A stretch of DNA of 64,000 nt from Ianthella basta. Taxonomy: Eukaryota > Porifera > Demospongiae > Verongiida > Ianthellidae. Under the pieces are notes generated by a model, which was given only the letters and a program-made list of their open reading frames with translations, was not told the origin of the DNA and did no database searches. Position numbers and translations under genes: made by a program. Where the stretch lies: contig OZ025874.1 of the NCBI GenBank assembly GCA_964019415.1, positions 4,336,196 through 4,400,195 on the forward strand, in the 5' to 3' direction. Shown here one piece after another: positions 25,788 to 62,506 of this stretch; the first letter of the stretch is position 1; each line of letters begins with the position of its first letter.

Positions 25788-25807
25788 CGGAGCTTCCTTT
25801 TACTCAG

Positions 25808-34087: not shown

Positions 34088-34154
<67 letters not shown>

Positions 34155-35069: not shown

Positions 35070-35299
35070 CGGTGACTGTCATCACACAAGCCGCAGGGAC
35101 AAGCTTAATACTGTTCTCATCTTGTGCTTGCCTAACTTTGTTAACAATACAGGCAGTTGTGATTGTATCATTCCTTTGAATCAGAGTTTTGTAGAGACAA
35201 ATCACGTCATCTTTATACAGACTTTGTGGAAATAGCAAAGGGCACGCCCCTGAAAATGGCCACACTCAGGGAAGGCTGAAGCTAGTTTAGACATATGTC

Positions 35300-35737: not shown

Positions 35738-35923
35738 GAGGAAGTAGATGACCATAGACCCATTCAAGTCATTCCACAAGGCCGTCTTTATTCTTGTATG
35801 GCATAAATATCTTTTAGCACTGGGTGCTTATAATATTATTATGTAGAAATATAGCTTTTGCAAGTTATGAGCTGTCACGTTCTTATCTTCTACCATACAC
35901 ACTTCCCTGAAGTCATCTGTATA

Positions 35924-36840: not shown

Positions 36841-36895
36841 ATCTGTATACCCTGCCCCGAAGGTGGGCGTGTCTGCACGTGATTAGTTAACTACA

Positions 36896-39739: not shown

Positions 39740-40119
39740 TTTGGATGGTGTGCTCAAGATGAATTGTCTATAATACTTATTGTAGCTATGTGACTTGAGA
39801 CAGTATAGTAAGTGGTGACTGTAGCACTATAATACACCATCACTGGTGAGGCAGTGTTATTCAACAAAGCCTCATTTGTTACATACACGTATAGCTTCTA
39901 TGAAAAATCTACACTATTTGTAGTGACTTGTATATTACTGTCTTCCCAAACTCTGTACTTTGTGTAAAATTATGTTTCCCAATTGTGCAAGCGTATACTA
40001 TTCCATGCCATAATATATAACATGCATAACCAGCTAGACGCCATGCATGGCACATATGAATCGTACAGATGAATCCCAAACTTGAAATCATTGCAGCTAT
40101 GTATATGGATCGAGTCAAC
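39740..40119. other. 3' flank of CARD-phosphorylase gene, no gene seen
   Basis: Non-coding, AT-rich and shared with unit 2 (58980-59340), where it differs by several small indels. Confidence 0.5.
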
Positions 40120-41560
40120 AGCCATCCAGCTGGACAACAAGACAGCTCATGCAAACACAGGGTGAGCTCCATCCTAAGTCAACCAAACCCTAAGAGCAAC
40201 CTCACCAGGGGGCTGAATGAGTCACTGAGAAGCCTAGCTACAGGAAGATGAGAACACTGTCATCCTCCTGGTGGACAATGGAAGTGCAACAGCTGTCATG
40301 AACCGAGCAGACTATGTAGCGAAGATGGAGAATTTGCTGAAAGATGCGTGACGCCTAGAAGAACCTAGGTGACGCAGGACCCCACCAGCAGAATGGAGAA
40401 GAGGACCAATCTCCACTACCATCAAACAGTATGAACAGAAAGGCCACATCACACAAGCAACAGATGTACCTTGCCCAACGGTTCTCAACTCCACCGCAGA
40501 TCCATGGCTTGCCAAAGACACACAAGGAATGGACCTCCCTCAGACCTATAATGGCAGTAATAGGATCACCCTCACACCTACTGGGTTAGAAATTGGGTCC
40601 TTTCACCACTGGCAGGTAAGGGTCACTCACATGTGAGGAACTCTGCAGACTTCATGTAATGAATCCACCAGACATCCTTTGCAGACACAGATGTCATGGT
40701 CAGCTTTGATGTTGTGAACTTGTTTGTCAGTGTCCCAGTGGATGAAGCCCTCCAGGTCATCTCCAACCAACTGCAGCAGGACAAGACTCTCAGAGGTAGG
40801 ATGAGCATCCCCATTCCAGAACTTTGCCACGTACCTCATGGAACAGTGCCTGGGGTCCACTTACTTTCAGTTTGGTGGATCCTTCTTTGAGCAGTTGCAA
40901 GGAGCAGCAATTGCAATGGGCTCACCACTCTCACTTATTGTGGCGAACATTTTCATGGAAGACCTGGAGACTTGAGCTCGTGCTTTGGAGACGTCCCTAT
41001 GCAAACCCAAGTTGTGGCTTAGGTATGTAGATGACGTCTTTGTCATCTGGCCCCACAGAGACCACCTCCTGAAGACCTTCCACCAACACCTCAACAGACA
41101 AAATTCTTCCATTCAATTCACTGTGGAAGGGAGTCAGAAAGCAGGATTGCCTTCCTTGATATCAAGCCAAAGAGGAGGGGGACATCCACCCTGACTTCTG
41201 TCTTCCACAAGAAGACACACACAGACTAGTGGTACCTGAACTTCCAGTTACATCACCCTGCCAAGGTGCTCAGAGGAGTTGCTCGAGGATCAGAGCTGAG
41301 GCTTGTAATGGACACAACTCCCTCCTCCTGTCTCCCCTCTTGACTACCTCACCAAAAACGTCCCACCCCTCATGACTGTCCCCATCTTTACTCACTCCCC
41401 GTTTCACAGCCATTACGGCACTCCACTTTACACATTATGCAATTTCCTGCCAGCTATATGGCATCCACTGACACACCCACCTTTATTTAATGAGTCACAC
41501 CTTATCAGTTTTGTATTACAGCTGAAGATCTACAGATCGAAACATTATGTAACCCATTGA
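40120..41560 (+). mobile_element. Penelope-like element RT remnant (copy 1)
   Basis: Broken plus-strand frames carry Penelope-type RT motifs: KTHKEWTSLRPI-like near 40515, SFDVVNLFVSVPVDEALQVI (40700-40760), and LRYVDDVFVIWPHRDHLLKT with the catalytic YVDD at 41024-41035. The 'F..HLN.....I.FT.E' continuation follows. Frameshifts and stops prevent a single ORF. I see no GIY-YIG endonuclease domain downstream. The element is shared with unit 2 (59360-60830). Confidence 0.75.
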
Positions 41561-42314
41561 TTGTGATGCTGTGCTTAAAAGCTCATCAATTTACCCATTT
41601 CATGAAACATTGAAGTAACACACAAGCTAACTGATACACAATACTAGTGCTGGATAAAGATATGAGGCAAACGTGGGTTATTATAATGTAATGGGAGACA
41701 TTAGCCGTATAGACCTATAATTTGTGCAGCTATAGTAGCTACTAGTGTTAGCGAGGGGGAAACTTTAAATGTGCCATGAACTAATGATCAAGTGAAATCA
41801 ACTAGGATGTAAGTACATGGCTGAAACGGCTGTAGTCATAAATGAAATTTATATATATAAGCATTCAAGCATCGATGATTGAGACATACATATCACAGGC
41901 TCATCTGGCCAATGAACAACTGCTGATCATCATTCATCAGAAGAGGTGATGTGGTGGAGGCTCATGCTATGGCTAGTGCTAAACAAACTGGGTTAGCAAT
42001 GACAAAAGTCAGTGCCACTCCATGTCTCGGAGACATTTCGACTTGAGGGTCTATTGTGATTGACAAACAGACTCAAAATCAAGCCGGAGTCTCAATTAGT
42101 CTTTTGCTATGATCACAAATGCCATGTAACAACTATCACATGTAACATGCACGCAAATATATGTTGCAAATCTAAGCAACAAACTATAGCTGTACTATAT
42201 ACTGCAGCGTCGACCAGCTGGTGTCAGGTAGACTACTGTACTGTGAAGTCTATTGCACTTGCGCCATTTTATATCACAAGAGTGTCACATGTATAACATC
42301 ACAGTGCTGACCTG
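41561..42314. other. Intergenic, no gene seen
   Basis: Non-coding and about 93-95% similar by eye to 60840-61522. It separates the Penelope remnant from the DIRS-like insertion. Confidence 0.5.
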
Positions 42315-42330
42315 CGGTTGCTTGAAATGC

Positions 42331-43257
42331 CTACGGATTTATAGTCTCGTCCCCAGCCCCACTTCCGCAAAAGGTTGCTGCACCAATCCTGAATGAGTGG
42401 CCAGAGTACCCTGTTGGATCGATGCCAGCTGCTGTGAGAGTTGACCTCAGGGGGCTAACCAGTTTGGCTCGTGTGAGTGGCTGACGGTCCTCTGTCTGGA
42501 ATAGTGGACCCTGGTCAAAACCCCGTGCCACCAAGTACGCGAGCATTGCTGCTATCGGACACAACTCGTTGTTGGTCCTGCCGATGAATAGATTGATGCC
42601 CTGCCGTGCCTGGTCAGTCTTGGAGCCTTTAAGCAATATTTGAATTAGCGAGGGGCTCTGCAAGTCATCCACCGCGATGTCCATGGGGGTCAAGTGCCAT
42701 GCTGGGTCAAATGAGTTAACCGATGGTGATGTCATCTCACCTGACCTCAGGAACGCGAAGAATCCTAGACAGCATGCCGACCACAGCATCACGTTGTCCC
42801 ACTTGTGTGGTTCCTGGTCCAATGCTGCCTTGACTCTCCTCAGGACGTACGGTGTTATGGGAAGGCGTGTGTCCTTCACTTTGGGTTTTGACCTCTTTAG
42901 CCCTCTTAAAGCTAGTTGGAGCCGCAATGCGCCTGCCAGTGGATCCCCAAGCCCCTGTACAATGTGCATGTGACGGATGGCCGAGAGATAGAACCTCACT
43001 GAGCTGTGGGCTAGGCGTAACGAGAGGTGAGCGACGAACAGGATCAATATGGATTCTCGAGCTGGCAGTGGGGATACTCCCATACAGTGGCAGAACTGCA
43101 TGAATTCTGACTGGCCGACCCGGTAGGCCTTGCGAGAGCTCGGTGCTAAGCTGTCCCTGATGAGGTCCTTAGCCACTCCTTCCAGGCCGGTGACGTCCAC
43201 TCCGGTTGCCGGTTTGTCAGAAAGCTCCACAAGGGGGATGGGACCGGTGTAGGGCAT
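42331..43257 (-). pseudogene. Tyrosine recombinase of DIRS-like element, C-terminus missing
   Basis: 308 codons. SSRKAYRVGQSEFMQFC is the core-binding start. The catalytic domain shows Arg in LRSGEMTS, Lys in LLKGSKTDQ and the HSFRIGAAT box (His-x-x-Arg). The ORF then ends after GAGDETINP, inside the terminal inverted repeat. The usual 'W-S-D-A-Y-x-x-Y' segment carrying the nucleophilic Tyr is absent. The recombinase would therefore be inactive. It overlaps the end of the RNase H frame (43478-43146) in another frame, as is common in these elements. Confidence 0.85.
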
Positions 43258-44584
43258 CTGTGCACCTGGGGAGTTGCCTCGAAGAAAACCTGCATGTGGT
43301 TACCAGAGACAGCATCAGCTGGAGTGTTGGAACTCCCTGGGATGTGCTCAGCCCTCAGTTTAAAGTCACACCTAGCACAGAAAAAATGGATGCACCGCAG
43401 TAAGTGCATTAAGACGTGGTCTTTGCATGACTGGGCTGTGATCACTTGGACCACAGCCATGTTGTCGCACTGGACCAATACCTGTTGGTGACACCATTCT
43501 GGGCCCCAAACGGCACATGCAACAGCGATGGGGACTAACTCTTTAGCAGCAATGCTCTGTGGGATCCATTCTTCATCCCATGAATGCTGTAGCCATGCCT
43601 GTCGCCAGACTGCGCCACAGCCCCATGCACCGGAGGCATCTGAGGAAAAGATGACAGTCGGAGTCCATTTTGGATTGTGGCCAAGTCAGCTTGGAATTCG
43701 GCATCCAGCTTGACCCAGTGGTCTGGGTGTCTTGCCTTCGTGGATAGATCTATCATGCGCCTTAAAAAGGCTCGGCCTGGGTGCACCACTTTGCAGGCAT
43801 GTGAGAGCTTCCCCACTAGTGACAGTAATTCACGTTTCTTGCAGGCTTTCTTGTACTTCCACAGCCTGATCAGTGCCTTCAATTCCTCCAGCTTTTGCTC
43901 GGGCAGGCGGATCTCCCTACGCTCTGTATCCAATACGATGCCCAAGAATGTGAGTACTGCCAATGGGCCTTCGATCTTCTCCCTCTTCAACGGCACCCCT
44001 AGCCACTCACAGGTCCTCAATATTAACTCTAGGTTGTCCCTGCATTCTGTGGTATCCGGTTGGCCCATTGTTAGAAAGTCATCGATGTAATGTGTGCTCC
44101 ATGACACACCCTGTTTGAGGAAGGTCCATTCCAGTGCATCAGCAACTGCTGTAAATATCTTGGGGGATGACCTGAGCCCAAAGGGGAGGGTCAAATCAAG
44201 GTAAACCTTTCCATCCCAGCTCATGCCCAGTAGGTGACGATCTTCTGGGTGTACCGGGATATTCCGGAAGGCGTGAGCTATGTCAACTTTGGCCAGCATG
44301 GCGCCTGGGCGTAGTCCCAAGATATGGGCAATAGCTTGGTCCACGGTTGGATACTGTACTGAGCATAACTGAGGGTTGATCCCGTCGTTGACACTCCTGT
44401 GAGGTGGTGAGGATAGATCCAGGATCAGGCGCCACTCTCCATTCTTCTTAGGTATCACCCCAAATCTGCTCACCTGCACTAGGGGGACTTCTGATCTCAG
44501 GAATGGCCCAGCAATCCTACCCGCTGCCAGCTCAGTGGCTAGGTACTGCTCTACTGGCCTGGGATTCCTTGCGGCTGATAACAT
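43146..44584 (-). pseudogene. RT and RNase H of DIRS-like element
   Basis: The RT frame (44584-43535) has SRFGVIPKKNGEWRLILDLS, AKVDIAHAFRNIPVHPEDRH, LPFGLRSSPKIF and the catalytic THYIDDFLTMG. The connection region (KKRELLSLVGKLSHACKVVHPGR) follows. RNase H continues in a different frame from about 43640: FSSDASGAWGCGAVW, then MVQCDNMAVVQVI and AEHIPGSSNTPADAVSG. The frame change inside RT-RH near 43640 is a disabling indel unless recoded. Confidence 0.85.
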
Positions 44585-46253
44585 GATAGTGACGATCTCC
44601 TACTGCTGCTGTACTGGTACCCAATGTGGAAGCCATTTGACAGGCCTGAGACAACATAGGCAGCTAGGGCCTGGTCTGGGTGCTGGCGTAGGAGGCCTTC
44701 CCAGCGGTGTGGGAGTAATGGCATGACAATGTGGGAGGCTGATGAAGGGATTGAGATGAGGTGTTCGGGTGTAGGCTTGCAACTCTCTAATTGAATCAAC
44801 TGGTTAGTGTCTATGTGTCCTATACAAAATAACTCATCTGTATTCATTGGAGGTGCTGTTTCTCTAATTGGGTGTTGACAGGGGCCATCAAAAGGTTCCC
44901 AGTGGGTAATCAGGTCTGGATCATGTGGAAAATCATGGTTTACTACAACTGACTCTATCTGCTCACTTCCGCGGGCCTCCACGAGGCCCCCTCGCGGAAA
45001 GGGGGGGCTTGGGTTGTCTGAGGCCGTCTCTGCTAAACTTCTGGTCACTCTGCACACTTTAGCTGGGTGTCCTGGTGAGTGGCAGTCCATGCAAATATGA
45101 TTAGATTTGCAATGGAGCCGTGTGCAGCGGCTGAAGTTCCATGCCCTGCAGATCTCGCCCAAGATGGAGTAGGGAGCAGTTGCTCTCTGACGGGCAGCTC
45201 TTGACCCCGTAGCCACCTCGCTGGGCCCCTCTGGGCCCCCATCTTTCGTGGGGGACGGGACAATTGCCAAACCACTGGCGCCCTTTGATAACTTTGCACT
45301 TGTGAAATAGTTGGTCCAAAGGGATGCCTCTACCTGTGACCATTGAGTCAGCCTGTTGGCTGCTGCCAACCGTCTGAAGTGGGCATCGTATGCCAGCCAC
45401 GGGGTCCCTTCATAGTCAAGACTGGCTTTTGTGATCATTGATGAGTAGCCGAGGAGGTCCTGCACACGCTCGGGGTGCTTGAGAGCCATTACACTGATGA
45501 CCGAGTTGAAGCAGACCACCCACTGCTGGATTGACGTAATCCTTTTCGGTTCCTTGGGTTTGTCTCTGTTTGACATCAAGTCCCTCAGTGTTACCTCAGG
45601 GGCTCCCAGCCTGCTGGGAAGCAGCTCGCTTAGCTCAACAAATTACCCCTTCCAAATCTTTTCAGCTAGCTTCCTTGGGACTGGGGGGGAGTGGATACCC
45701 ACGGGGACTGCCTCGTTAGACAAGGGGGCAGGAAGTGGTGGAAGTAGGCTCGATAGGGGTGTCATCGGCTGGAGCCCTGAGCCATGTTCCACAGTTGCTG
45801 GGCTGCCCAGGCTCATGATCGGGGTGAGGCTGCTACTGCTCGCTGGACCCGCTGTGGGCACCGCCGACATCACTGGCATGCCTGCCAGAGCAGTGGTTGG
45901 GGGCAACAGACCCCCACTGGGCATGCTAGCTACCCCCCGCTACCCACTGGGAACGTACCATTGGGAGTTGTGCTGGTTGGGGCTGCTTGAGTCGCCAAGC
46001 GCTGGTCCACCATCTCTCTGAGGTCGCGGGTCGCGTCTGCGACCGCTGCTCTCACCGTGTCTTTCACCAAGGTCTGCACTAGCTGCAACGCTCTCTGGTT
46101 TTCCTCCGTCAGAGGTCGTTGCTGCGCCGCCGTGGGTGTGGGGGCCCCTTCGGGATTCTCTGCCATCGTTGCCGGACGCGTGCTCAACAATGAGTCAGTT
46201 CTGTTGGCTTGTGGGTTGCCCACCTTCGCATAGAGAACAGCTTGGCCCGCCAA
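44551..46253 (-). pseudogene. Gag-like ORF of DIRS-like element, frameshifted
   Basis: Three consecutive frames (46253-45930, 45924-45643, 45579-44551) reconstruct one gag-type region. An N-terminal coiled-coil-like part (ENQRALQLVQTLVKDTVRAA) is followed by a Pro-rich linker and a C-terminal Cys/His cluster (CRAWNFSRCTRLHCKSNHIC, then C-x2-C-x4-GH-x4-C as CMDCHSPGHPAKVC). Breaks lie near 45927 and 45640. Confidence 0.75.
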
Positions 46254-46474
46254 CGCTGAGCACGTGACCCCTGCCCCTCTGCACGTGCAGCTGGATGCTT
46301 GCCGGACCCTACGTGTTAACGACCTTTAACCCATTAAAGTGTCATGACGTCCCGAAAGAGTGCGTATTTCATTGGTCCAAATGACTAGCACGTGAAATGC
46401 CTAATCCGTAGGCGTTCCAAGCAACCGTAAATCGACAGTGCCAAGAATAGACATCTCTTATCTACTCTTGACAG

Positions 46475-46631
46475 TACCAAGAATCGCTAGCATTCGTGGA
46501 ACAGAGCCTCTAAACTATATAGCGATACAAAAGAACTGTGATACGGACTATACTCAGTTCTTCCAATCCAAAATAACTGAATGCCTTGATACCGTTAGGA
46601 GTTAACGAAGAAGAAGACGCTTGCTACTCCA
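46475..46631 (+). promoter_or_regulatory. 5' flank/UTR shared by chimera and RING-NYN-CCCH gene
   Basis: 157 bp directly before the ATG at 46632. The same length is conserved (about 93% by eye) before the ATG at 62507 (62350-62506). It should contain the 5' UTR and core promoter of the RING-NYN-CCCH gene and, in unit 1, of the chimera. No TATA box is obvious. Confidence 0.5.
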
Positions 46632-49600
46632 ATGACTGAGAGTCTTCCTCCGTATGAGATCGGGTGCGTAGAGTGTGACAAGGTATGTGTTGGGGAAAGG
46701 ATTACCTTGGATTGCAGCGAGCATCATGTGTGCATGAAATGCCTTCCAAAGCGTGCGGAAAGACTGGGTAGTGATGTGGCTTCGTGCGTTGCTTGTCGTA
46801 ACTCCCGTGCTCGTGCGCTCTCGCGAGACACCTCTCCGGTAGATGTAAAAGATAACGTCTCGATTTTTGTGAATGATTCACATTTATGGATAGAAGGTAA
46901 GAAAGCCAGAAAATTCACTCGGGAGCCCCCCTTTGCTCAGATGCCAGCACAAGTGCAAGACAATGGAGAAGGAGCTGTACCCAACAGAAGGGGTGAGAGA
47001 GTACACAGTGGACTAATGCAACATGTGTGCGATAGGTACCCAAATACATGCAATCTGTGTGCTTTCAATTACTGGATTTAATTATTCTGTTTTCATTGTT
47101 AATTCTTCAAACTGGAATTGTGCAGTACTTGCACTTGTAATATTATGTATGACTCCAGGGCCTCCATCACAGGAATTTCATGCATATCTGATTCTCACGC
47201 ATGCAATGTGGTCTTTTGTACAATACCAAAAATATTGTCCTTTACCAATAATTTTAGTATGCTGGTCATGTATAACGGATATCATTCCTCTGGGTTTTCA
47301 TTAGAAGAATATGCACCATTTGATCACTAGTATTATTTTATATGTTTGAGAGATTGGCATACATATCTTATCGAACTCCCTTTTCAGCGGGTTTGAGGAC
47401 ATGCATATATATACATTTGCATAATTACTATTAGACTACAGGATCCTTCCATGTACATAATTATATAATGCTAGCTTTGCATGCACATGAACATTCCTTT
47501 TAAACCTGAGCTAAAGATATTAAGACAAGACCTATGCCAAATTGCCTAAAAGGTTACGTATAGCAACAATCAAATGCACCAAGCTGTTTCTTCCAGAAAA
47601 CCATGAGGACTGATAACTCTTCTTAGTGTAATGAAAGTGAACATTTATAGGAATAGTCTCTTGTATTCTCTCTTTACTGCCCCCCACCCACCCCCCCACT
47701 GGCCCAGGTGATGACAGATTAGCAGGATTCACTCAAGATGATTGCCTACATCTGTACCAGAAAGCTATTACCAACAACCCCACCATCAACCTCCACATTG
47801 GCAAAGCAATGACAATAGGCCCCCCTCGAGTTGGAAAGACGTATCTGCGTTACCTTCTCCTTGGGATGCCACCGCCAACCAAATGTTTTAGCACGTCTGT
47901 GATGAGAACTGCAGAAACTGTACACATTCCTCCTTTGGCAGGACACCCAAATGAGGAGGTAGATCACAAGTCATCCAATGAAGAAGATGAAGAATCAACT
48001 GATGAAGAAGATCTAGCTCAGAGATGTGGCAATAGGGGATGTATTACCACTGACTTTTTTGGCCTCACCTCTAAAGGCAACAAGTGGGTTCTTGTGGATG
48101 AAGGCAGTGCAGTACAGAGCTTGCTGAGGTTCTTAGCAGCAGTACATACACCCTTGAGGTCTAGTCAGGAAGGGACCACTAGTGCACAACAAGTCACTGA
48201 GGTCATCTCAGTACCCAACCTTCCTACTTCTGACTCTAGCACCCCACAGGAATTGTTTAACCTCCTTCAACATCCTGATTTATGCAATGTAACATTCCCC
48301 GATGCAAAAATACTGCAGTTTCTAGATAGTGGAGGACAGCTAGCATACCACGATATCCTCCCAGTCTTCACTACTAACCCATCAATCTACCTCCATGTGT
48401 TTAACGTCACAAAGGACTTGATGGAATGCCCTACAGATCAAATTTTGATTGAAGGTGATGAACAAGAATCCTATTCCCAAGCCCTCTCACCAGTCTCCAC
48501 TGCTCAGATGATTACTCGTTCAGTGATTGCAATCAGTTCTCTCAAGAATAGGAAGGGAAAGCTGCCACAGGAAGTCTTGCAGAGTGAACCTTCTGAGCCT
48601 TCTGTGATGCTGGTGGGTACTCACCTCGATAAGCTGGAAGAAACGTATGGAGTAGGCCGTGATACATTAAAGAAAACAAAAGAAATCGACAGTGCATTGC
48701 GAGAAGCACTGAAGTCAGAATGTCTGGAAGAGATAGTAGTCAAGAATAGCAAACATTCACTCCCAGCCATGTTCTTCCCTGTCAACAATAGGTTATTTGT
48801 TGAGGAGAATGGTGGTCAGGGTTCTGAGCTCAGTAGGCGTGCCATCAAATGCCTCAAGAGGAAAATTAGTGGGCAAACTCATGTACAAGTAAAGGTCCCC
48901 GTCAAGTGGTACCTGCATCAGCTGGTGGAGATGAGCAGAAGTGGCAAGGAGCGAAGGCCAGTGCACAGGTACAAGGAGTTGTACCTATCATGTCAAAAGC
49001 AACTGGTTGTCACTGGTGTGGGTGAATTTCACACCATGGTCACCTACTTCAATGCCTTGGGCCTTCTTGTTCACCTGTGTGGTGAGGATGTGGAGCACAC
49101 AGAGGAGAGCACCTGCTTCGTTTTCACTAATCCTTCATACCTGTTTGAAAATATATCCAAGCTCTATCAGGTCCAGTTTCTGAATAAGGACAGGTGCCAA
49201 GGTGGTCTGCTGAGCCTAAAGAAGCGAGGAATACTGACTGAAAGGTCACTTCAAGATCTGCGAGTGGATGATGTACACCTGGAGCACAGAGACTTCATGG
49301 GTGTCCTGGTCCAGCTTTTCATTGGAGCAGAAGTCGGAGAGAAAAGCAAAGACAAAAGCAAGGAACTTTTTATCCCCTCAGTGCTGATGCTACCAGCAGG
49401 AGACCATCTGAATGCCCATCATCCGGATCCACAGATAACTACACCACACTTTTCCCTTACTTTTGAGGGGATTTCATTTTTGCCATGTGGTGTCTTCACT
49501 GGAGCAATTGCTCGTCTGCTATCTGTAAAGGAATGGAATGTATCAGAAAAGTCCATTTCTCGTATACATATACCATTTGCTGTTGGAGCATGCGATATTG

Positions 49601-52600
49601 TTCACCTGTTTGATTGTGCCACCCACATCAGGGTAGAGCTGACTGTCGGTAATCAGCAGAACACACAGAAATATAGGGATATCATTCTGGATGCATTTGC
49701 CGAATCATACTGCTTCATCTTCCACTGCAAGACCGGCAAAGATCGTGAAACTTCATCTTGCAAGGAGTGCCACTCTAACCCATTCCTTGTCCTCGGACTG
49801 CCCTGTCCTACTTGCAAGCCTGAGGCTAACCACATTGCCGTGCTACGTGTAGAGGATGGTGACCCTCAGACAGTTCGCTGCCAGGAAGCATTTGCTAGTC
49901 TCAGTGATGGGCAGAAGCTATTGTTCCAGAACATGGAGCATTATGTAAGTTTATTTGGCAGGTTATGATGAACTAGTATTGCATTGTGGATGATGTCGCC
50001 ACCACTGACCTGGTCTGGTGACATTTTTACATCCTTCTGCATACCTTGTTGTGTCACCACCTTGATTGAGTCAGTCACAAGCATTACCCTGACAGAGAAA
50101 GTTGGAGAACCACCACTACCACTCTTATTACTTCAATGTTAACTGGTTTAGGCTCCACCCGGCAGAGCAGAACAGTTCAGTGTTAGGCGGATCAGTGCAC
50201 AAATCGGTGTTTTATGATTCCCCTTTCTACACAGCACACTGTACCAAATGTTATATAATGCGCTGTACTGTGTTCACTGCAGGCTGTTATTCCCAATCAG
50301 CACACCCCATCAGGGGCTGGAGTCATGGCACTCGCACACAGTGGAGAGGAAGGTACACATGAATACACCCAGCAGTGCACTAATAGTACTAGCAGAGAGG
50401 TGCGCCTTTGGCACACTTCTCTGCTCTGGCGCCCGACGCCAGTGCTTCTGACACAAAGAAATTCCAACACTGGCTAGTTATAAACCCCTTTCACACGGAC
50501 GCACTAATCCAGATTAAGAAACCAGATTCGAACCTGGATTGAGTACTGATTGCGTTCACATGGCAATTTGTAGAATTTTCCGGAAGTGTAGAAATTGTAT
50601 TATAAGGTGCTGTTTAACGTATTGTTGGCAGCGTCGATGTCGTTTAAGCTATGCTAGAGGAGATAGCATATGCAGCAGGCCAGACAACAGCGTGCAGGTG
50701 TTGTACAGAGACGTTGCAGGAGCCATACAAATGGAAACAGTATTGCGCACCACGTTTGCCATGGCTCATTGTCTGCATCAGGTTACATGGCTAGACAATG
50801 CAGTGGGTTCAGCGCAAGGGCACAGCATAGTGTCTTCGGCCCGAATGTCCAGCACTGTTCCACCTGGCAGTCTCTCCGTATGTTATTACGTTCCATCATT
50901 TTTAACCCGGATTACAAATGGGTCGAACCCACCTAGGCCAGGTGGGTTCGACCCACTTGCTAATCCAGGTTAAACCGCTCGTGTGGCGCAACTAATCCGG
51001 ATTCAACCCAGATCTAACACCTTTTTAATCTAGGCTAGTGGTCCATGTGAAAGGGGTTATAGAGTAGCATACCGCTGACTCCTGGTTGTTTCTTTGAACT
51101 GTCTCTTGGCTCTTCTATTGAGCTGATTCCCGGTTGTTCCCTTAAGCCAAATCCTGTTGGCTCCTTTGAGCTGATTCCCCTTGAGTTGGCTCCTGGTCAT
51201 TCCCTTGAGCTAACTCCTAGCTTTACCTTTGAGCTGACTCTCTCTGAGCTAGCTCCCAGTACGTCCCTTGAGCTAACTCCTGATGATTATCGGTTGAGTG
51301 TTGGTCTTCAAGCACTGAAAGTTGTTGACTGCTTCTGAGAGCTCTCAGCATCCCTCAATGTGTTGATCTCTTGGATAGTGACAGTGTTTGGCTTAACATT
51401 CAGCCTTTTGCATTGCAGCGCTTGCAAATTGCAGTGAAGGATGTTGTGATGATGTCATCAGATCATCATGCAATTGTTGACCTGGATAACTTGAGCCCAT
51501 CCTTTCGCCATCAAGCCACTTTCTTTCTCCCATGTGGAAGCTTTCCATTACATAGTTTGTCACCCACAACCTTAAACTCAAAAATGATAGCAAGGAGCTG
51601 TCACACCATATTCCCAGGAGGAGGTGTGTAACAAACAAATTTGCTGCAAATTCTGTAATCTAGTTTGCTTTCCCCGTAAAACAAAAATGGCATCCCATAG
51701 TTACATATGGCGAAACTTCAGCTAACCTTCATTGCAAGCCTTGCTCAAAAAATACACTGAGGACACCCTCCAGATGGCGATTAGAAATTCAGACTGCGTT
51801 CGCTGCAAATCCTTTGGTCAGTTTTGGAGGTTGCAAACAAAAATTGGCCTAGCTCCATTATAATAAGATGCTTCGCTGGATGCAGCTGCTGACAGAACAA
51901 CGTTTCAGTACTACTTGGCGAATATAAAACATTGTGTGGGCGAGCAGGAGTATATATGCATGCAGGGACATGTTGGTAACTAAGTAATGACTGAGACAGC
52001 AGGATTAGCATTAAGGTATGCCATGCAATGTCAGACTGCGTAACTGCAAGTGCACAATATATACAAGGAATAGACCAACACAAAGTTAACGTGTCTACAG
52101 CGAGCAAGGCTGAGTAAGAGAAGGTAGCTGAATGGTAGCAAAGCTGCAGCACCCTTCTAACCTGGCCTGTGCAGTCCTTGTAGAGCCAAGTGGTCCAGTG
52201 CACCCTCACTCATGATCCTGACAAGCACGCTGTCCAGCGGAAGCGGAATTATGCGAAGCTCTACTGGACCAATGCAACTTCAGCGACAACAAGCAAGAGA
52301 ACCATCAAGCGACAGCGCACTTCGCGCCTGCCCCACTTAGTCCTTGTGTAGCCAGCCCGAAGCTGTATCTGTGCTTCAGTTTCTGCCTGCCGGCTGTGCT
52401 CTCTGGCCTTGCCTGGCCTTAGCTAGCCGAAGCTGTATCTGTTGTGCAGTTTGGCCTTTTGTGCTGTACAATACATTGTGTATCTTGTGTATAAAATCAT
52501 GTTTGATAGCGCAACGACAATGCTTGTATAACAAATGCATACTGGTATAAATGACTTTCAGCTGCCGTGCATACGACATAGGAAAAGCAGGTACGGTAAA

Positions 52601-54319
52601 AAGGACAGAAACAAGTAAAGGCTGTTACACTGTGGAGCATTTACCATCGTCCCTACAGTCATGGGTGTAGGACTATACGGTGCGACATTCTTGCATGTAG
52701 GGACCATCGTTAATGCTCCACTGTGTAACAGCCTATACTTGTTTCTGTCCTTTTTATGCCATCCCTACATCCTTACAATTTTTGTAGAAAAATTTTATTA
52801 TGTCTAGTAGATATTTCCTCATTCGTATCCTTTCTCCTTGTCATTATCATGTACGTACACCTCCTTACCTCTCTTTCTTCCTGTTGCATGTGTTAATATT
52901 GTTGTCTGGTGACTTTAAGTTTGGTGTTTTTTGCTCTCCACATGCTGTATAGGTGGTTCCATGGCTCCAGTATACAAGCCACCACACATCCTCTTCCTCC
53001 ATTCGACTGCTCCACCAGTACTACCTATTGGGTCTGCTTCAACTGGATCAGCAGCACTACCTCAGCAAGTGCAAGGCACCATTATGACTGCACCAGGTAA
53101 AGAACTATACAGTTTATGAAACCAGTAAAGCAGACTTGCACATTATGTGTGTGTGACTAATGTAAGCTAAGATTTTGTGGGGGTTCTTTCCAGAAACTGC
53201 ACAGACGGGGCTGCACCAGAAGGTATTACTCACTGGATAGTTAGTCTGACACTGTGATGTAGTGGTTGAATGCAGACACAGATGTAAACACAAATGTACA
53301 TGCACCAAACACAGACACACAATCGCACCTGTACGCTCATGTGCACACAATGCTCGCACATATCAACATTGACACACACACACATATACACATGGTAGTG
53401 TAATGTAACTTATAGCATACACTGCACAGTCTATGTACTTCTGTATACTGAGAGTGGTACCTTGGATTTTGCCAATAGACCTGGCTATGTTCCATTGTGT
53501 GCATATAGTTGGCTGGTAGCATATTGACTTCCTTCTCTCTACTACATGTATTAGGTGATTATTGCTAGACTACAAGATGATTGCTGCATGGAATCAATCA
53601 AAAAGGAAAGAGCTCTAAGCGTAATTGCAGCCAGGGTGTCATTTCAAAGGTCTATGGACAGAAACAACATGAATTTGTCTCTGTTCTACACATTACCTTA
53701 AGGTCTTCGGACGTAGCCCCTTCCATCGGGCCTGACTGCAACTATGCTTAGAACTCTTCCCTTCTGATGTGTTAGGTGGTTCCATGGCTGTAGTGCTTGA
53801 CATCCCCTCTGTCTATTCCACTGCTGCCCCTCCCCCACTACCTCCAGGTGGAGCTACTGCAATTGTTTCACTGTCCGCTACTGAAGGACAAGTGACTGGT
53901 GTACAAAATATCACCCACCCGGCAGGTAAGCACATTCAAGTGAAGGCTCTGTTATCATAGCGTACGTGATCATATTGTGTAAATGGTAATGATCACGGGA
54001 TATTATTGGATATATGAATTAATGTTGTGTTTCTATGACAGATGTGATAGAGGCCCTTGAGCATCAAGTTGACACAAGGTGGAAACATTTTGGCACTTTT
54101 CTTCGTTTTGAGCCATCACTGATGGACATCATTGAGAGTAACAATAACAAGAGTGTCACTGACTGTATGCTAGACCTAGTCACCAAGTGGATGGCCCACT
54201 ATGAAGGAACTGGTGGCCTCCCTCGCACATGGCAGACTGTGTTGAAGGCAGTTAAAAATTCAGGGTGTGGGTTGCTGGCAGAGAAACTGGCAATGAAGTA
54301 TGGAGTAACCCTCACATAG
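46632..54319 (+). CDS. Predicted chimera: RING::Roc-COR::Death (Roc-COR/Death copy 2)
   Basis: Exon 1 (46632-46992) starts as the RING-NYN-CCCH gene: RING-HC with Cys12, 15, 28, His31, Cys34, 37, 52, 55. It keeps the first NYN strand (NVSIFVNDSHLWIEGKK), crosses the duplication junction at about 46905-46918 without a stop, and enters MPAQVQDNGEGAVPNRR, the first known exon of the Roc-COR gene. The two ATGs are 309 nt apart, so the fusion is in frame. Later exons: 47708-49944 (P-loop GPPRVGKT, G3 DSGGQLAYHD, G4 THLDK, COR, Cys-rich tail), 50283-50352, 52953-53096, 53194-53222, 53776-53925 and 54042-54319 (Death domain). The 29-nt exon shifts the frame (stop at 53791-53793). Skipping it restores the frame and gives 1079 residues. 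It may instead start at the ATG at 46941. Expression is unproven. Confidence 0.6.
50483..51058. mobile_element. MITE with AACCCCTTTCACAC termini (copy 2)
   Basis: Counterpart of 29312-29886 at the same intron position, with the same inverted ends. It predates the tandem duplication. Confidence 0.8.
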
Positions 54320-54544
54320 CGGTGACTGTCATCGTACAAGCCACAGGGACAAGCTTAATACTGTTCTCATCTTGTGCTTGCCTAACTTTGTTAACAATAC
54401 AGGCAGTTGTGATTGTATCATTCCTTTGAATCAGAGTTTTGTAGAGACAACTCACGTCATCCCTATACAGACTGTGGGAATAGCAACACCCCTGAAAATG
54501 GCCACACTCAGGGAAGGCTAAAGCTAGTTTACACACATGTCTAC

Positions 54545-54978
54545 ATTTCTCAAGTGCGTCTGAGGAGCATGCACCTAAGACTGTCCCACTGGACATGGCG
54601 GAACTGCAGCAGAAGCATTATCGTTCTTCCTCTGCCAAGAAGAAGGGAAGCAGAAAGTCAACATACGTTAGACAAATTCAGGATGGCCCAATATGCACAG
54701 TGTGTGGTGTCAACCTAGATCCCCTGGCTGCTGCAGCCCAGCACAGACAGGCTTACCCAGCAGCAGCACACCCAGCTCCCCATGTGAGTGACTAGCGCAC
54801 ACTGTACACACAGGACTGCTCTCCTCAGCTGCGTGGCAGTGCTGTGAAGGAGCACTGGGGTGATCATGCTTCTCCTGCCCTGGAGTCAGTGAGCAGTCTG
54901 TCCGCGAGTAGCTGCTCTGTGGCCTCTGAAGTGCTGGAGCGGGCCAGAGAGAGGAGGGACCACTTCTGGGTGGAGTGA
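54545..54978 (+). pseudogene. MDM1 C-terminal fragment, copy 2
   Basis: Nearly identical to 35300-35737, sharing the same TAC-to-TAG stop after HAPHVSD-like coding (PHVSD, stop at about 54793-54795). The shared lesion shows that the fragment was already dead before the tandem duplication or has been homogenised since. Confidence 0.9.
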
Positions 54979-55164
54979 GAGGAAGTAGATGACCATAGAC
55001 CCATTCAAGTCATTCCACAAGGCCGTCTTTATTCTTGTATGGCATAAATATCTTTTAGCACTGGGTGCTTATAATATTATTATGTAGAAATATAGCTTTT
55101 GCAAGTTATGAGCTGTCACGTTCTTATCTTCTACCATACACACTTCCCTGAAGTCATCTGTATA

Positions 55165-56081
55165 GGGCAAGGAGAAACGGCGGAAATGCTCAGAAATGTC
55201 GTCCCAATCCATAATCAAGCCCAACCCACATGCCAAACTCCACCCACAAATAAGCCCCACCCACGTAAAAGCCTCACTGAACAAATCCAGCCTACAACAA
55301 GAATAAACTCAAACTCAAACTCCAATGTAACAATACAACACAAATAGTCAAGGAACACTTTGAAGGAGGCAGCAAGAGCCTGCTTATGTGCTGGGAGTAG
55401 TGCTGTGGCAATGGCACTGGGGATGATGAGGTGCCACTGTGGGTCGAACTGCGGCCACACAGACCAAATACATGGCAGATGCAGGTGGTAGTATGCGTTG
55501 CCGAACCGTGATTGTGGAGCAGGACTACCAGGCAGTGTGAATGACCTCCACTCGCTCCTTGTGCATGATGCATAGGTCGCCAGGGGGATTGATTGGGTTA
55601 GGGTAGCGCTGCTTGCATCCAAAGCATACACTTATGTTGCCTCGTATGAAGGCAAGCATGAAGGGGTGCCTGACAGAGCCTGGGGTGGAATGCCAGCTGT
55701 GCCCACCTGCTGCTGAGAGCTAAAGACTTGCACTGAAGAAGGGGTGCAGTACCCTATTACATCATGGGTTAGCTGAGCATGCTTTGTGCAGTCCTGCCTA
55801 TACCCCGCTCCACCCTGTCCATAGCTATCTGTGTTATCACTAGATACACCAGTGCAAGCCATGGCCAGACATAGCGTACATGCTTCTTTTGATGTGCTTC
55901 TTGTGACTAAATTGTACAGCTGAATATAGGGTGTAGGGTTGCTTAGGGTGGATTTGTTCAGTAAGGCTTTTACGTGGGTGGGGATTACTTGTGGGTGGAG
56001 TTTGGCATGTGGGATGGGCTTGATTATGGATTGGAATGACATTTTGAAGCATTTCCGCCATTCCGCCGTTTCTCCTTGCCC
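55165..56081. mobile_element. Non-autonomous Mutator-like element (copy 2)
   Basis: Same 917-bp element, same long terminal inverted repeats and same ATCTGTATA duplication (55156-55164 and 56082-56090) as at 35924-36840. By eye it is more than 99% identical, so it was copied with the segment and did not insert independently. Confidence 0.9.
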
Positions 56082-56136
56082 ATCTGTATACCCTGCCCCG
56101 AAGGTGGGCGTGTCTGCACGTGATTAGTTAACTACA

Positions 56137-58979
56137 ATGGCTGCTCCGGATGATCGCGAACGCTGGGCCAAGGCCTTGAAGGACGTTCTTCCTACTGTGG
56201 AATTGAGCTTTGATGTGAATCCATTTCTTTCGGAACTTGAAAATAAGATTTTGGGCCCGTATGAATACGCAGAAGTGACGAAACACAGCAATAACAGAAT
56301 TGACCAAGTGAGGCTGGTGTTTCGCACAGTCGCAACAAAGGATACCGAGTATATTAAGAAGTTCGTAGAGATTATTGACGTCCCTGGATCGAATCATTGG
56401 GCAAAAATGATAAGGGAACGAGTTGATCCTGCGCCCTTGGACCAGCTGGACCAACGACTACCTGAAGGTGTGTGGATGTGGTGTTATATAATCCTCGTCA
56501 CGTATAATGCAGTTCTTCGTGATATACATTATAGTTTGTTTTGGTCTACCATGGCCTACAGTTGTGTGTGGCCTTCTATAATCGTAGCCCTAATTGCCCG
56601 GCATATGTGTGCATAGTGTATAAAGTGTTGATGGAATTCATGCAGTTGCTGTTTTTTTGTTTTTTTGTTTTTTAACGTGCACCATGCCACATGGTGGCAC
56701 TAGGACTCACTGTGGTCCAATGTAGCACACACAAACATAAGAAACATCATGTAGATAGTTAGTTGATGAGTAAACCAGGATATCTGTGCCATAGCTAATG
56801 GGAAAAAGCATTGTGCCATTGTGACTACAACAGGAGTAGGAAAGAGTTGAGAACAACACATAGAGTCTTAATTTAAAACTTGCCAAACCGAGCATACCAC
56901 ATTGACATAATAGTGGACAAAATGTTATAGTTCCTACAAGCAAGGGACAGTAGGTGAGCTGTGCCTTCTGCGTCTTCTGTGTGTGACTGGACTTCAGGCA
57001 ACAATGGCTGTCGATGGCTGTTCCATGCTGGACATCTCAGAAGCCAATGTGTCACATCTTCCACTTCATTTCTGGTACACTCCTTGCACAGCCTATCCTC
57101 TCTCTTCACTCCCTGCCACCTGCCTGTCTCCACCTGAAAAGCCGCTGTGCCTCCCCTTAGCTTCAGCAATACCCTCCTCTCCCTCTTTGCCTTCACATCT
57201 GCACAAGAAGACTCCTCACCACACTCGACAATCCTCCTCAACATTGACAACTTCGGTTTCATCTCCAAATCCTTGCTCCATTCTGCCCTCACTCTCTGCC
57301 ACGCAACACTCTCCAGCATTCCTTTCAGCTCCGCCTCTGACGTGTTCTGTACCTTCTCAGCACCCACCTCCTGCCTGTATTTACTTGATGTTGAGTAATC
57401 ATGGGTGAGAACACAACATGCAGTAAGGGGCCCAATAAATGGGGCTCCTATGGACCAATGACAGATATTAATCTTGTCTAATCAAAGACACAATCACCAG
57501 CCAATTTCCAGTGGACATTGTAGCTCAGTGGCGGAGCACTGGCAGCTTAAGCCAGAGGCCCTGGATTCAACTGCCAATGGTGCCACCTTTTTCCGTGTCC
57601 TTTGCCATTTCAAAAGTCTGCAGGCAGTAATGGCCCCAACTGTATCTTTTATTAGACACAGTCAGTCTTCTGATCATAGGAGCCCCATCCATCGGGCTCC
57701 TCAATGCATTGTTAAGGTTACAATAAAGGCCTGGAATACTCATCTTGTAAGATTTGATGAAATCATGCTTGAAATCAGACGACAGACATTGGGCTGAAAG
57801 GCAGGTTCTTGGCTCACTGTTTATGTGCACACTGCCGTACTCTGAAGAACGGAGACGTGTTGGCCTCGGCAATTGCTGAGCATAGCTTTTGTCCAACCAT
57901 AAGGTGGACCTCTCTAAGGCCACAGTAGTCAATGCATACCCTCACCCATTGGGTGGTGTATAATGTTAATCATTCATACATATTTATACACAGCTCCTAT
58001 ATCTAACTTATATTTCTGTATCCTTATAATGTGTGTCATCCTCCTATTCCATGCAGGTCATGAGGAGACTGACAACCCTGGGCAGCAGCAGTCAAAGCCA
58101 CAGATAGCGATCATAACTGCCAACGAAACAGAGCAAAACGTTGTGAAGCGCTATCTTAAGCTCGGTGACAGTGGACGCGTGTGGGAAGGACTAAAAGACT
58201 ATGACTGGAACCAAGATCCATTTCTGCAGAAGAAGAAAGTTAAAGTTGAATTTGTTCATGAGGCAGACACTTATCAAGTGTTTGCTATTGGAGGAGTGAC
58301 TGGTGTTCATGTGAAGTGCACTAGAATTGGCCCTGGTGGTGCCAAAGAGATTACCTCTGAACTGCTGCAACTGGCTACCAAAGAAAAGTGGCCATTGCAG
58401 GTGATATTCGTGGTTGGCTGCTGCGGAGTGTCCATGAGTGATGCCAAGAAGAAGGAGAACTGGCGTGGCACTGTTCTTCTATCTGACCAGCTAGAGGACT
58501 ACCTTGACAGTGGAAAGGCTGAGGAGAGTGGACTTCAAACAAAGTCCCGAACGTACTCCTTGAACAGTGTGTGGCCAAACAAGCTATCCGAAGAAACCAT
58601 TGTACGACCAGATGTGGAGGAGGAGAGCTACAGGGACATCCCTGTGGAGAAGGTGGTCAAGTACTTGTCTGGGGCACTAGTCATTAAATCAGAAGAAGAG
58701 GGAAATAATATTCGTGGTAGTTGTGCAATGGTGGGCATTGAGATGGAAGGCTCTAGCGTGTACAGCACTGTGCAAGAAATGCGGAGTAAAGTGGACGTAG
58801 TGGTAGTTAAAGGCATTTCTGATTACGGCGGTAGAGACAAGAATGAGGACGTCAAGTCAGTGGTATTTGGCAAGGAGACAGAAGGGAAGGTTAATGACAA
58901 AGCTCGTCAGGAAATTGCAGCATTTCATGCCATCACCCTTGTGACCCGGTGTGTGGCCAGCAATGCGAAACACCTCTAA
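56137..58979 (+). CDS. CARD-nucleoside phosphorylase fusion, copy 2
   Basis: Exons 56137-56467 and 58057-58979, phase 1, 417 residues. The CARD exon encodes the same residues as copy 1. The phosphorylase exon differs at a handful of positions (MFAIGG to VFAIGG, one extra Lys in DAKKKENW, NKYRGS to NNIRGS) and keeps VGIEMEGSSV and KGISDYGGRDKN. Both copies are therefore open and apparently functional. The substitutions avoid the ribose-binding Glu and the catalytic-loop Asp. The intron holds the same LINE (56651-57374) and SINE. Predicted role as for copy 1: a CARD-recruited nucleoside phosphorylase or hydrolase. Whether it cleaves purine nucleosides, MTA/SAH or pyrimidine nucleosides cannot be told from the motifs. 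Confidence 0.85.
56651..57374 (-). mobile_element. 5'-truncated LINE (copy 2)
   Basis: Counterpart of 37411-38137, with the same open C-terminal frame (57367-56873) and T-rich tail on the plus strand. Confidence 0.85.
57517..57710 (+). mobile_element. tRNA-derived SINE (copy 2)
   Basis: Counterpart of 38281-38470. The A-box-like TAGCTCAGTGG begins at 57521, and the anticodon-arm loop has one change (GCTTAA). Confidence 0.55.
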
Positions 58980-59359
58980 TTTGGACGGTGTGCTCAAGAT
59001 GAATTGTCTATAATACTTATTATAGCTATGTGACTTGAGACAGTATAGTAAGTAGTGACTGTAGCACTAATACACTATCACTGGTGAGGCAGTGTTATTC
59101 AACAGTCTCATTTGTTACATATACAGTACGTATAGCTTCTATTAGAAATCTACACTATTTGCAGCAAATTGTATATTACTTTCTTCCCAAACTCTCTAAT
59201 TTGTGTAAACTTGTGTTTCCCAATTGTGCAAGCGTATACTATTCCATGCCATAATATAAAATAACATGCATAACCAGCTAGACGCCATGCATGGCACAAG
59301 TCATATGAAACAGATGAATCCCAACCCTTGAAATCATTACAGCTAAATACGTATATGGA

Positions 59360-60830
59360 GCCAACAGCCATCCAGCTGGACAAGAAGACAGCTCAACATG
59401 CAGCTCATGCAAACACAGGGTGAGCTCCATCCTAAGTCAACGAAACCCTAAGAGCAACCTCACCAGGGGGCTGCATATGAGTCATGATCACTGAGAAACC
59501 TGCTACAGGAAGATCAGAACACTGTCATCCTCTCTGCGGACAATGGAAGTGCAACAGTTGTCATGAACTGAGCAGACTGTGTAGCGAAGATGGAGAATTT
59601 GCTGGAAGATGATGCCTACAAGAATTCGAAGGTGACGCAGGACCCCACAAGCAGAATGGAGAAGAGGACCAATCTCCACTACCCTCAAACAGTATGAACA
59701 GAAAGGCCACATCACACATGCAATGGATGTACCTTGCCCACCGGTTCTCAACTCCACCACGGATCCATGCCAAAGATACACAAAGAATGGACCTCCCTCA
59801 GACCTATCGTGGCAGTGATAGGATCACCCTCACACCTACTGGGTAAGGAATTGGCCAGTGTCCTTTCACCACTGGCAGGTAAGGGTCACTCACATGTGAG
59901 GAACTCACAGACTTCGTGCAACAAATCCACCAGACATCCTTTAATTGCAGACACAGATGTCATGGTCAGCTTTGATGTTGTAAACTTGTTCACCAGTGTA
60001 CCAGTGGATGAAGCCCTCCAGGTCATCTCCAACCAACTGCAGCAGGACAAGACTCTCAGAGATAGGACGAACATCCCCATTCCAGAACTTTGCCACCTCG
60101 TGGAACTGTGCCTGGGGTCCACTTACTTTCAGTTTAATTGGCGGATCCTTCTTTGAGCAGTTGCAAAGAGAGCAATGGGCTCACCGCTCTCACCTATTGT
60201 GGTGAGCATTTTCATGGAAGACCAGGAGACTTGAGCTCGTGCCTTGGAGATGTCCCAATGCAAACCCAAGTTGTGGCTTAGGTATGTAGATGACGTTTTT
60301 GCCATCTGGCCCCACAGAGACCACCTCCTGAAGACCTTCCACCAACACCTCAACAGACAAAATTCTTCCATTCAATTCACCATGGAAAGGGAGTCAGAAG
60401 GCAGGATTGCCTTCCTTGATATCCAGCTGGAGAGGAGGGGGACATCCACCCTGACTTCTGTCTTCCATAAGAAGACACACACAGACTAGAGATACCTGAA
60501 CTTCCAGTTATATCACCCTGCCAAGGTGCTCAGAGGAGTAATACAGTGCTTGAGGATCAGAGCTGAGGCTTGTGATGGACACGACTCCCTCCTCCTGTCT
60601 CCCCTCTTGACTACCTCACCAAAAACGTCCCACCCCTCATGACTCTCCCCATCTTTACTCACAGCCCCTGTTTTCACAGCCATTACGACACTCCACTTTA
60701 CACATTATGCAATTTCCTGCCAGCTTTATGGCATCCACTGACACACCCACCTTTATTTAATGAGTCACACCTTATCAGTTTTGTATTACAGCTGAAGATC
60801 TACAGATCGAAACATTATGTAACCCATTGA
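59360..60830 (+). mobile_element. Penelope-like element RT remnant (copy 2)
   Basis: Better preserved than copy 1. One frame (59734-60156) holds MPKIHKEWTSLRPIVAVIGS, GKELASVLSPLAGK and SFDVVNLFTSVPVDEALQVI. The YVDD box is at 60283-60294 in another frame, followed by FTMERESEGRIAFLDIQLER. Still frameshifted and dead. Confidence 0.78.
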
Positions 60831-61522
60831 TTTTGATGCTGTGCTTAAAATCAGTTTACCCATTTCAAGAAAGATTGAAGTAACACACAAGCTAACTGAT
60901 ACACAATACTAGTGCTGGATAAAGATATGAGGCAAACGTGGGTTATTATAATGTAATGGGAGACATTAGCCGTATAGACCTAAAATTTGTGCAGCTATAG
61001 TAGCTAATAGTGTTAGCGAGGTGAAAACTTTAAATGTGCCATGAACTAATGATCAAGCGAAATCATCTAGGATGTAAGTATATGGCTGAAAAGGCTGTAG
61101 TCATAAATGAAATTTATATATACATAAGCATGCAAGCATCGATGAGTGAGATATACATATCAGGCTCATCTGACCAATGAACAACCGCTGATCATCATTC
61201 ATCAGAAGAGGTGATGTGGTTGAAGCTCATGCTATGGCTAGTGTTAAACAAAATGGGTTAGCAATGACAAAAGTCAGTGCCACTCCATGTCTCGGATACA
61301 TTTCGACTTGAAGGTCTATTGTCGTTGACAAACAGCCTCAAAATCAAGCCGGAGTCTCATTTGGTCCTTTGCTATGATCAAAAGTGCCATGTAACAACTA
61401 TCACACTTAACATGCACGCAAATATATGTTGCAAATCTAAGCAAACTATAGCTGTACTATATACTGCAGCATCGACCAGCTGGTGTCAGGTACACTACTG
61501 TACTGACAGGTCTATTGCACTT

Positions 61523-62271
61523 TAGTCTGGCTTGCTAGACCGTCCCGTAAGCGCCCGGTAGGCGTGGAAGGGAAGGGACGGTCTAGCGGCAGTATAGATT
61601 AGATAACACTTTGCATTATCCTGCCAATTATTACGTCGCACCTGTCTAGTACCGGCTGATCATGGAGGAGTCCTTCGAAGGTGTATCATTTGCTTTGAGT
61701 GCACTGCGCAAGTCAATGTCGGTCCTAACGAGACGTCAGAAGGAAGCCTTGAAGAGCGTCATCAGCCGTAAGGATACGTTTGTAAGCCTGCTGCCGAATC
61801 ACTGGACATGGGAAGTCCATCATATTCGAGTGCTCGCCGCATTGTTGCGAGTACTATGGAGGAATGTTCGGCACTACCTTCTGTGTTGGTAGTGCACTCT
61901 TTGGCCGCATTACCGCGTTGTAACAACCTTTGCAGAGGCACGGAGCTCCATTGTTTCTGACTTCGGCGCTGCAGTTAAATGCTACGAGCTGCGAGAGAGC
62001 CTCCACCAGCTGATGTTAGCGCGCCTCGCTTAACCAAGTAGTACGGTTGCTCTACGGAGCCAATGCAAAGATAGCAGCAACGATCCGGCTCCGAACTCAT
62101 CGCACATGCTTGCCCCGTCTTCTTCAATCGTCAATGAATACTATTACCCGGGATTCCGGGGAAACGGATCTGATTGGTCGAAAGGTGTTATTTAATCTAT
62201 ACTGCCGCTAGACCGTCCCTTCCCTTCCACGCCTACCGGGCGCTTACGGGACGGTCTAGCAAGCCAGACTA
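61523..62271. mobile_element. 749-bp inverted-repeat element carrying a RecQ-like ORF fragment
   Basis: Ends TAGTCTGGCTTGCTAGACCG and its complement, within terminal inverted repeats of about 75 bp. The 9-bp ATTGCACTT is duplicated at 61514-61522 and 62272-62280. Unit 1 has the empty site at about 42250. The internal ATG ORF 61662-61892 (SVLTRRQKEALKSVISRKDT then FVSLLPNHW) resembles the 'L-x-x-x-Q-x-E-A-L-x-x-x-x-x-x-K-D-T-F-V' start of RecQ-type helicases just before the Walker A motif, which is lost. Likely a Mutator-like non-autonomous element with a captured gene piece. Confidence 0.85.
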
Positions 62272-62506
62272 ATTGCACTTGCGCCATTTTATATCACAAG
62301 AGTGTCACGTGTGTGACGTCACAGGGCTGAACCTGCCTGTTAAAGGAATTACCAAGAACCGCTAGCATTCGTGGAACAGAGCCTCTGAACGATATAGCGA
62401 TACGAAAGAGCTGTAATACGGACTGTACTCAGTTCATCCAATCCAAAATAACTGAATGCCTTGATACCGTTAGGAGTTAACGAAGGAGAAGGCGCTTGCT
62501 ACTCCG

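Follow-up and report, generated by a model that had tools for sequence, protein, structure and literature searches.

A tandem duplication places a RING-type reading frame in frame ahead of a Roc-COR gene in the sponge Ianthella basta

A tandem duplication in the sponge Ianthella basta has brought the 5' end of a RING-NYN-CCCH gene in frame ahead of a Roc-COR gene. The junction lies in a 64,000-nucleotide (nt) stretch of contig OZ025874.1 (C7; positions 4336196 to 4400195, in a genome of 209 Mb and 96 contigs), which we call the window and number from its first letter. Both the tandem-duplication junction and its in-frame RING/Roc-COR arrangement are real. We propose that they form a young chimeric gene, and we give its expression as a RING-Roco fusion protein a little less than an even chance. 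From the sequence, such a chimera may plausibly be functional, and several independent hints point that way, but this is unproven.

Self-alignment resolved two tandem units of 17 to 21 kb each, both with Roc-COR, Death, CARD-like, PNP, and RING segments (Table 1). Protein matches give the order CARD-like, Roc-COR, Death, CARD-like, PNP, and RING stub before the junction and, past it, Roc-COR (matching from 47710), Death, CARD-like, PNP, and RING-NYN-CCCH. The last of these is intact, a single open frame of 537 amino acids (aa) at 62507 to 64120, its end outside the window, with an NYN domain recognized by Pfam (E = 2.9e-10). Alignment of the stub with this intact copy stops at 46904, in codon 91 (the BLAST match reaches 46910), and homology to unit 1, from 25789 on, resumes at ~46922, leaving a filler of 11 to 17 nt; the sequence upstream of unit-1 position 25789 has no counterpart in unit 2. 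These measurements bear out an initial annotation of the same DNA, which had codons 1 to 91 running without a stop through about 14 nt of filler into the Roc-COR side: the frame from the RING ATG (46632) stays open until a stop ending at 47081, an open reading frame (ORF) of 149 aa. The filler was rejected as a templated insertion, there being no match of ≥11 nt within the window. A second in-frame ATG lies at 46941, 309 nt or 103 codons after the first, as that annotation had counted. By itself, the in-frame state of the join is not remarkable. In simulated joins the chance of a phase match was 0.33, and that of a phase match with an open frame (to the weaker of two candidate donors) was 0.13. 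Because phase alone matches in one-third of joins, the spacing of "exactly 103 codons" carries no evidential weight and was rejected as evidence.

A protein search with the 149-aa ORF gave two matches among 23 candidates. One, P0242, is the unit-1 counterpart. The other, P0241, from a 1166-bp contig in ENA, is also 149 aa long, is 98% identical over its whole length, and has the same junction; the junction is therefore genomic. P0241 departs from the window ORF at three residues only (2, 4, and 8), all of which match the intact RING gene, and judging by its sequence it comes from either a second haplotype or a very close relative. Chimeric assembly of its short contig could account for the N-tail but not for the junction. 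An assembly error joining two unrelated stretches, the danger that the initial annotation itself had named, was rejected because of P0241 and is highly improbable. Near-identical tandem units can misassemble in principle, and nothing else was found in favor of an error, but the identical junction recurs in another contig with three amino-acid differences, and the two units are mostly 4 to 10% apart outside one tract, enough for them to be separated. That near-identical tract, of ~4.4 kb (35421 to 39820 and ~54660 to 59060), covers the CARD-like and PNP exons; all 11 windows of 400 nt between 35.4 and 39.8 kb differ by <2% (0 to 1.8%), and 4 are identical, which suggests that the units underwent recent gene conversion.

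The RING part retains all eight C3HC4 ligands, spaced C-x2-C-x12-C-x2-H-x2-C-x2-C-x14-C-x2-C, and these are present in 42 to 46 of 48 homologues (48 of the 140 matches were used), the remainder being mostly gaps. The claim of a complete C3HC4 RING thus stands for ligands, spacing, and conservation, but no Pfam RING model was matched, with E-value limits of 1 for the 149-aa ORF and 10 for the intact protein, and the best fold match, to the TRIM30 RING among other zinc fingers, was weak (E = 0.69; model mean predicted local distance difference test score [pLDDT], 65.8). Two amphioxus relatives have weak, sub-threshold RING-type Pfam matches (best E = 0.017). What we take to be the usual proline between the last two RING cysteines is missing in this finger.

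The identity of the Roc-COR exon is confirmed by fold comparison of a predicted structure. With the AlphaFold model (mean pLDDT, 70.7; predicted template modeling score, 0.78; 69 sequences, with 67 of the 483 matches used), all 28 Foldseek matches in the PDB with E ≤ 0.001 were Roco, LRRK1, or LRRK2 chains, at 11 to 17% sequence identity; Pfam Roc matches of both window copies fall below the cut-off. The unit-2 ORF reads GPPRVGKT, DSGGQ (DCGGQ in unit 1), and THLD, which we take to be the Roco P-loop, DxGGQ, and THxD motifs. At 54319, the end of the interval given in the initial annotation, the Death region ends; its 3 silent and 6 replacement changes represent a divergence too small to tell whether it is constrained.

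The proposed chimera would have arisen from a tandem duplication whose two breaks fell within the NYN part of the RING-NYN-CCCH gene and immediately ahead of the Roc-COR exon. A transcript from the retained RING leader would be translated from 46632 and spliced from the RING part (most likely at 46897, less likely at 46993) to the Roc-COR exon at 47726 or 47708, with every site in phase 1. The resulting protein would begin with a C3HC4 finger, followed by a Roco GTPase and, further on, a Death domain; as a RING on a dimerizing Roc-COR switch, it might act in ubiquitination or assembly within a pathway of the immune or cell-death type. That the gene is transcribed and spliced in this way, that the Death exon is included, and that the protein has this biochemical role is what we infer.

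Two phase-1 GT donors with matrix scores >3 lie in the RING frame, at 46897 and 46993; another donor in that frame, at 46683, scores 5.6 and is in phase 0. The initial annotation spliced from 46993, where we find the GT and phase 1 in place; this path is in phase, but its donor scores 3.5 against 7.0 for 46897, which is probably the more likely site. It also called the segment ending there the first known exon of the second Roc-COR gene. That status did not hold up: the peptide of 46941 to 46992 is matched in 2 of 102 rows, both of them duplicate copies (150 of 156 candidates scored), and the segment is unsupported as an established exon. The acceptor at 47708 shares the phase of 46993, as had been stated, but colinear blastn matches of paralogues to the Roc-COR exon start at or inside 26611 in unit 1 and 47718 in unit 2 (short matches elsewhere excluded). 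Because paralogue homology begins there, CAG/GATTC at 47726 is the likely family boundary and the better-fitting acceptor. Either donor can be paired with either acceptor without loss of frame.

The Roc-COR open frame (from 47641) has no ATG ahead of the family-conserved region, and some upstream exon is therefore required. Between 46905 and 47640, 46941 is the sole ATG from which a frame stays open as far as a phase-1 donor scoring ≥3, and that frame is the RING frame; unit 1 has three such ATGs between 25300 and 26560, all sharing a donor at 25860. Two alternatives to a fusion protein turn on this region. Under the first, which we regard as unlikely, unit-2 Roc-COR would have captured a promoter only: transcribed from within or after the RING leader, or from the retrotransposon upstream of it, it would be translated from 46941 (MPAQVQ...), with the RING as an untranslated leader or relic. 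That ATG shares the frame of the Roc exon and has a usable phase-1 donor downstream, and the gene is under constraint (below) although it lacks everything upstream of unit-1 position 25789. Any transcript that included 46632 would, on the other hand, have that in-frame ATG first, and the 46941 exon is unmatched in paralogues. Under the second, equally unlikely in our view, the RING stub is a silent pseudogene fragment, Roc-COR uses an unrecognized first exon, and the in-frame join is a coincidence, a reading supported by the simulated chances above. When the region upstream of unit-1 Roc-COR and three ~9- to 10-kb paralogue upstream regions were compared by tblastx, matches occurred only within the near-identical pair L008/L009. 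A native first exon shared by paralogues was accordingly rejected, a result that agrees with a silent fragment; the lack of any second ATG with a suitable donor between 46905 and 47640 does not.

The state of the finger argues against both alternatives. Its codons 11 to 56 have no amino-acid change relative to the intact copy, whereas 8 of the remaining 45 codons are changed (P = 0.0025), and in P0241 none of 65 codons is changed in the finger part, versus 5 of 26 in the rest (P = 0.0014); in both tests the boundaries were chosen after the data had been seen. Silent-to-replacement counts are 0:4 in codons 1 to 8, 2:0 in codons 9 to 65 (no replacement among 2 changes; P = 0.08), and 1:5 in codons 66 to 91, and the two silent finger differences mildly favor selection. 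The truncated NYN part of the stub has decayed, with loss of W77, D81, N84, and I85, which are kept in 35, 45, 47, and 45 of the 48 homologues, respectively. The spared finger could be explained by purifying selection or by local gene conversion.

Unit-2 Roc-COR is intact and under constraint. Between the units, the ratio of replacement to silent divergence (dN/dS) of the exon is 0.365; when polarized with L008, silent-to-replacement changes number 20:22 in unit 1 and 25:32 in unit 2, for omega values of 0.48 (P = 0.015) and ~0.56 (P = 0.022), computed with a transition bias taken from introns. The unit-2 exon has no stop and no indels in 2256 nt, versus 26 indels in 2923 nt of aligned introns (3087 nt including a 164-nt stretch without any), from which ~9.5 to 10 would be expected for one neutral copy. 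Among the 145 columns with ≥95% conservation, 3 differ in unit 2; unit 1 shares each of these differences, and none is specific to unit 2 (P ~ 0.001).

Several observations weigh against an expressed fusion. The strongest, as regards expression from the original RING promoter, is that this promoter region is interrupted and its motifs differ: a ~4.16-kb retrotransposon splits the RING leader from its upstream region in unit 1, and the motifs there differ from those of the intact copy, a change that is unpolarized. Both facts sit well with a silent fragment. So do the changes over codons 1 to 91 as a whole, 9 replacement to 3 silent, which match the neutral expectation (P = 0.71) and would equally suit a RING relic behind a captured promoter. 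Gene conversion between units, plain at 35.4 to 39.8 kb, could have preserved the finger, and 15 of the 26 intron indels sit in a single 772-nt stretch. Because the native first exon was not recognized, Roc-COR may start in other ways, via an unseen promoter or a noncoding or multi-exon start. Finally, the Roc-COR donor is in phase 0 and the likely Death acceptor in phase 1, so that at least one linking exon is needed.

The family context bears on how a RING could have come to precede Roc-COR. The Roc-COR family is large, with at least 105 matches in the genome (60 of 257 candidates scored), and that of RING-NYN is not, with five matches: besides the intact copy and the stub, there are three ~40% relatives, all on C19. 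The C3HC4 pattern was found in none of 120 Roc-COR relatives listed (P0121 to P0240, of 483), most of which are exon-sized frames in which a partner in another exon is not visible. In P0139 and P0140 an N-terminal AIG1/GIMAP-type GTPase and the Roc-COR GTPase share one ORF, a double-GTPase protein, and precomputed Pfam matches also join an AIG1 GTPase to Roc-COR in P0141 and P0165. For RING-NYN-CCCH, 120 of 140 relatives were listed (P0001 to P0120), amphioxus members included. Separately, Roc-COR family matches at G000:C5:1286722, C5:565293, C18:5635768, and C1:12074219 lie within open frames of 2,374 to 2,678 residues, versus the usual ~800.

The place that the RING stub occupies in unit 2 is taken in unit 1 by a CARD-like exon (Table 1), and both CARD-like exons preceding PNP likewise end in a phase-1 donor. 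This pattern suggests, short of proof, that N-terminal partners have been exchanged through phase-1 introns and that in unit 2 RING replaced CARD. A CARD::Roc gene in unit 1 is nonetheless unproven, because CARD-like matches in the genome are few (four) and the fourth, on C9, is followed by no Roc-COR or PNP within ~5.6 kb; CARD::Roc-COR elsewhere in the genome was for the same reasons rejected as support. The fullest version of our proposal is a RING::Roc-COR::Death protein of recent origin that is expressed and kept by selection. The duplication would have swapped a CARD-like N-terminal partner for a RING and so created a GTP-switched ubiquitin ligase in a Death-domain pathway; we consider this version improbable as a whole. 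Upstream of unit-1 Roc-COR, two stretches within 22089 to 23176 are homologous to 35318 to 35876 and 36863 to 37311 and include a CARD-like exon without a following PNP exon, perhaps an older duplication stub together with a CARD::Roc gene.

TABLE 1 Features of the window discussed in the text (slashes in splice motifs mark the exon-intron boundary)
Feature	Position	Strand	Details
CARD-like exon	22764..23102	+	Phase-1 donor (23101); upstream of unit-1 Roc-COR; RING stub occupies this place before unit-2 Roc-COR
Unit 1	25789..42315, continuing ~46474-46904 after retrotransposon interruption	+	Roc-COR 26602-28854; Death 34773-35066; CARD-like 36911-37228; PNP 38681-39736
Unit-1 counterpart motifs CACATG / TAACATCA	42286..42301	+	Position aligned with motifs of intact RING copy
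Retrotransposon	42316..46472	-	Reverse transcriptase domain by Pfam; 25-nt inverted repeats at 42315-42339 and 46403-46427
RING-gene leader retained 5' of ATG	46475..46631	+	157 nt; 93% identity to 62350-62506
RING-NYN codons 1-91	46632..46904	+	N-tail (1-8); C3HC4 finger (C12, C15, C28, H31, C34, C37, C52, C55); truncated NYN start (66-91)
Candidate donor AAG/GTAAGA	46897..46898	+	Inside RING codon 89; phase 1; score 7.0, top donor of ORF
Junction filler	46905..46921	+	Between RING homology and Roc-side homology
Unit 2	46922..64000, running past window end	+	Roc-COR; Death; CARD-like 56152; PNP 57918; intact RING-NYN-CCCH from 62507
"First Roc-COR exon" of the initial annotation (MPAQVQDNGEGAVPNRR+G)	46941..46992	+	Ends at weaker donor GGG/GTGAGA (46993); unmatched in paralogues
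Two in-phase candidate acceptors	47708..47726	+	Exon start 47708 (initial annotation) or 47726 (after CAG; family homology start)
Unit-2 Roc-COR exon	47726..49944	+	Candidate donor TAT/GTAAGT at 49945; reads "HY/VS"; protein-level conservation
Unit-2 Death-domain region	54023..54319	+	Pfam Death E = 0.024, 15.2 bits vs cut-off 22.6; candidate acceptor gives exon start 54042, phase 1
Motifs CACGTG / TGACGTCA	62306-62321	+	~190-200 nt before ATG of intact RING copy

By our reading of the sequence, the retrotransposon in unit 1 is DIRS-like and its other ORFs are gag-like and recombinase-like; the recombinase-like ORF has no Pfam match, and eight other genomic copies match ≥800 nt of a 1-kb probe at 89 to 94% identity. 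An insert that has inverted ends of 91 bp (98%), together with a short target-site repeat, lies upstream of the intact RING-NYN gene at 61522 to 62272, in unit 2 only. Between Roc-COR and Death of unit 2, two candidate exons at 52953 to 53097 and 53776 to 53926 resemble each other (GGSMA... to ...PAG; both phase 1-1) and are possibly a repeated linker domain.

Our literature searches turned up no protein combining Roco or Roc-COR with RING, nor was there one among the 120 listed relatives. If expressed, the chimera would be a Roco protein with a built-in RING and an early-caught case of Roco/Death immune-type genes gaining new N-terminal effectors, one that needed no more than a single duplication, introns of the same phase, and a splice donor already in place. 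In its main text, a review of Roco proteins describes leucine-rich repeat, kinase, and DAPK-type death-domain groups, DAPK1 representing the group with a death domain, and the words RING and ubiquitin are absent from that text (PMC6337361). The chimera would share Roc-COR and a Death domain with DAPK1-type proteins; in DAPK1 a kinase precedes Roc-COR, whereas here the C3HC4 finger would do so (no kinase-aimed search was made) (PMC6337361). From the RING-NYN-CCCH proteins, the source family of the finger and the first NYN residues, the fusion would differ in being without nearly all of the NYN nuclease and the CCCH part. Also close to it is the animal-type Roc-COR family, which has the same Roc-COR exon, homology from the phase-1 acceptor, and a "HYVS" end, encoded as HY/GTAAGT in both window copies; the N-terminal partner visible there is an AIG1 GTPase (P0139 and P0140). 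In mode of origin, the junction resembles the chimeric genes documented from tandem duplications in Drosophila yakuba, where a duplication break likewise sets the 5' part of one gene ahead of the main part of a second (PMC5460883); the organism and genes are different, and for the sponge gene expression is a prediction.

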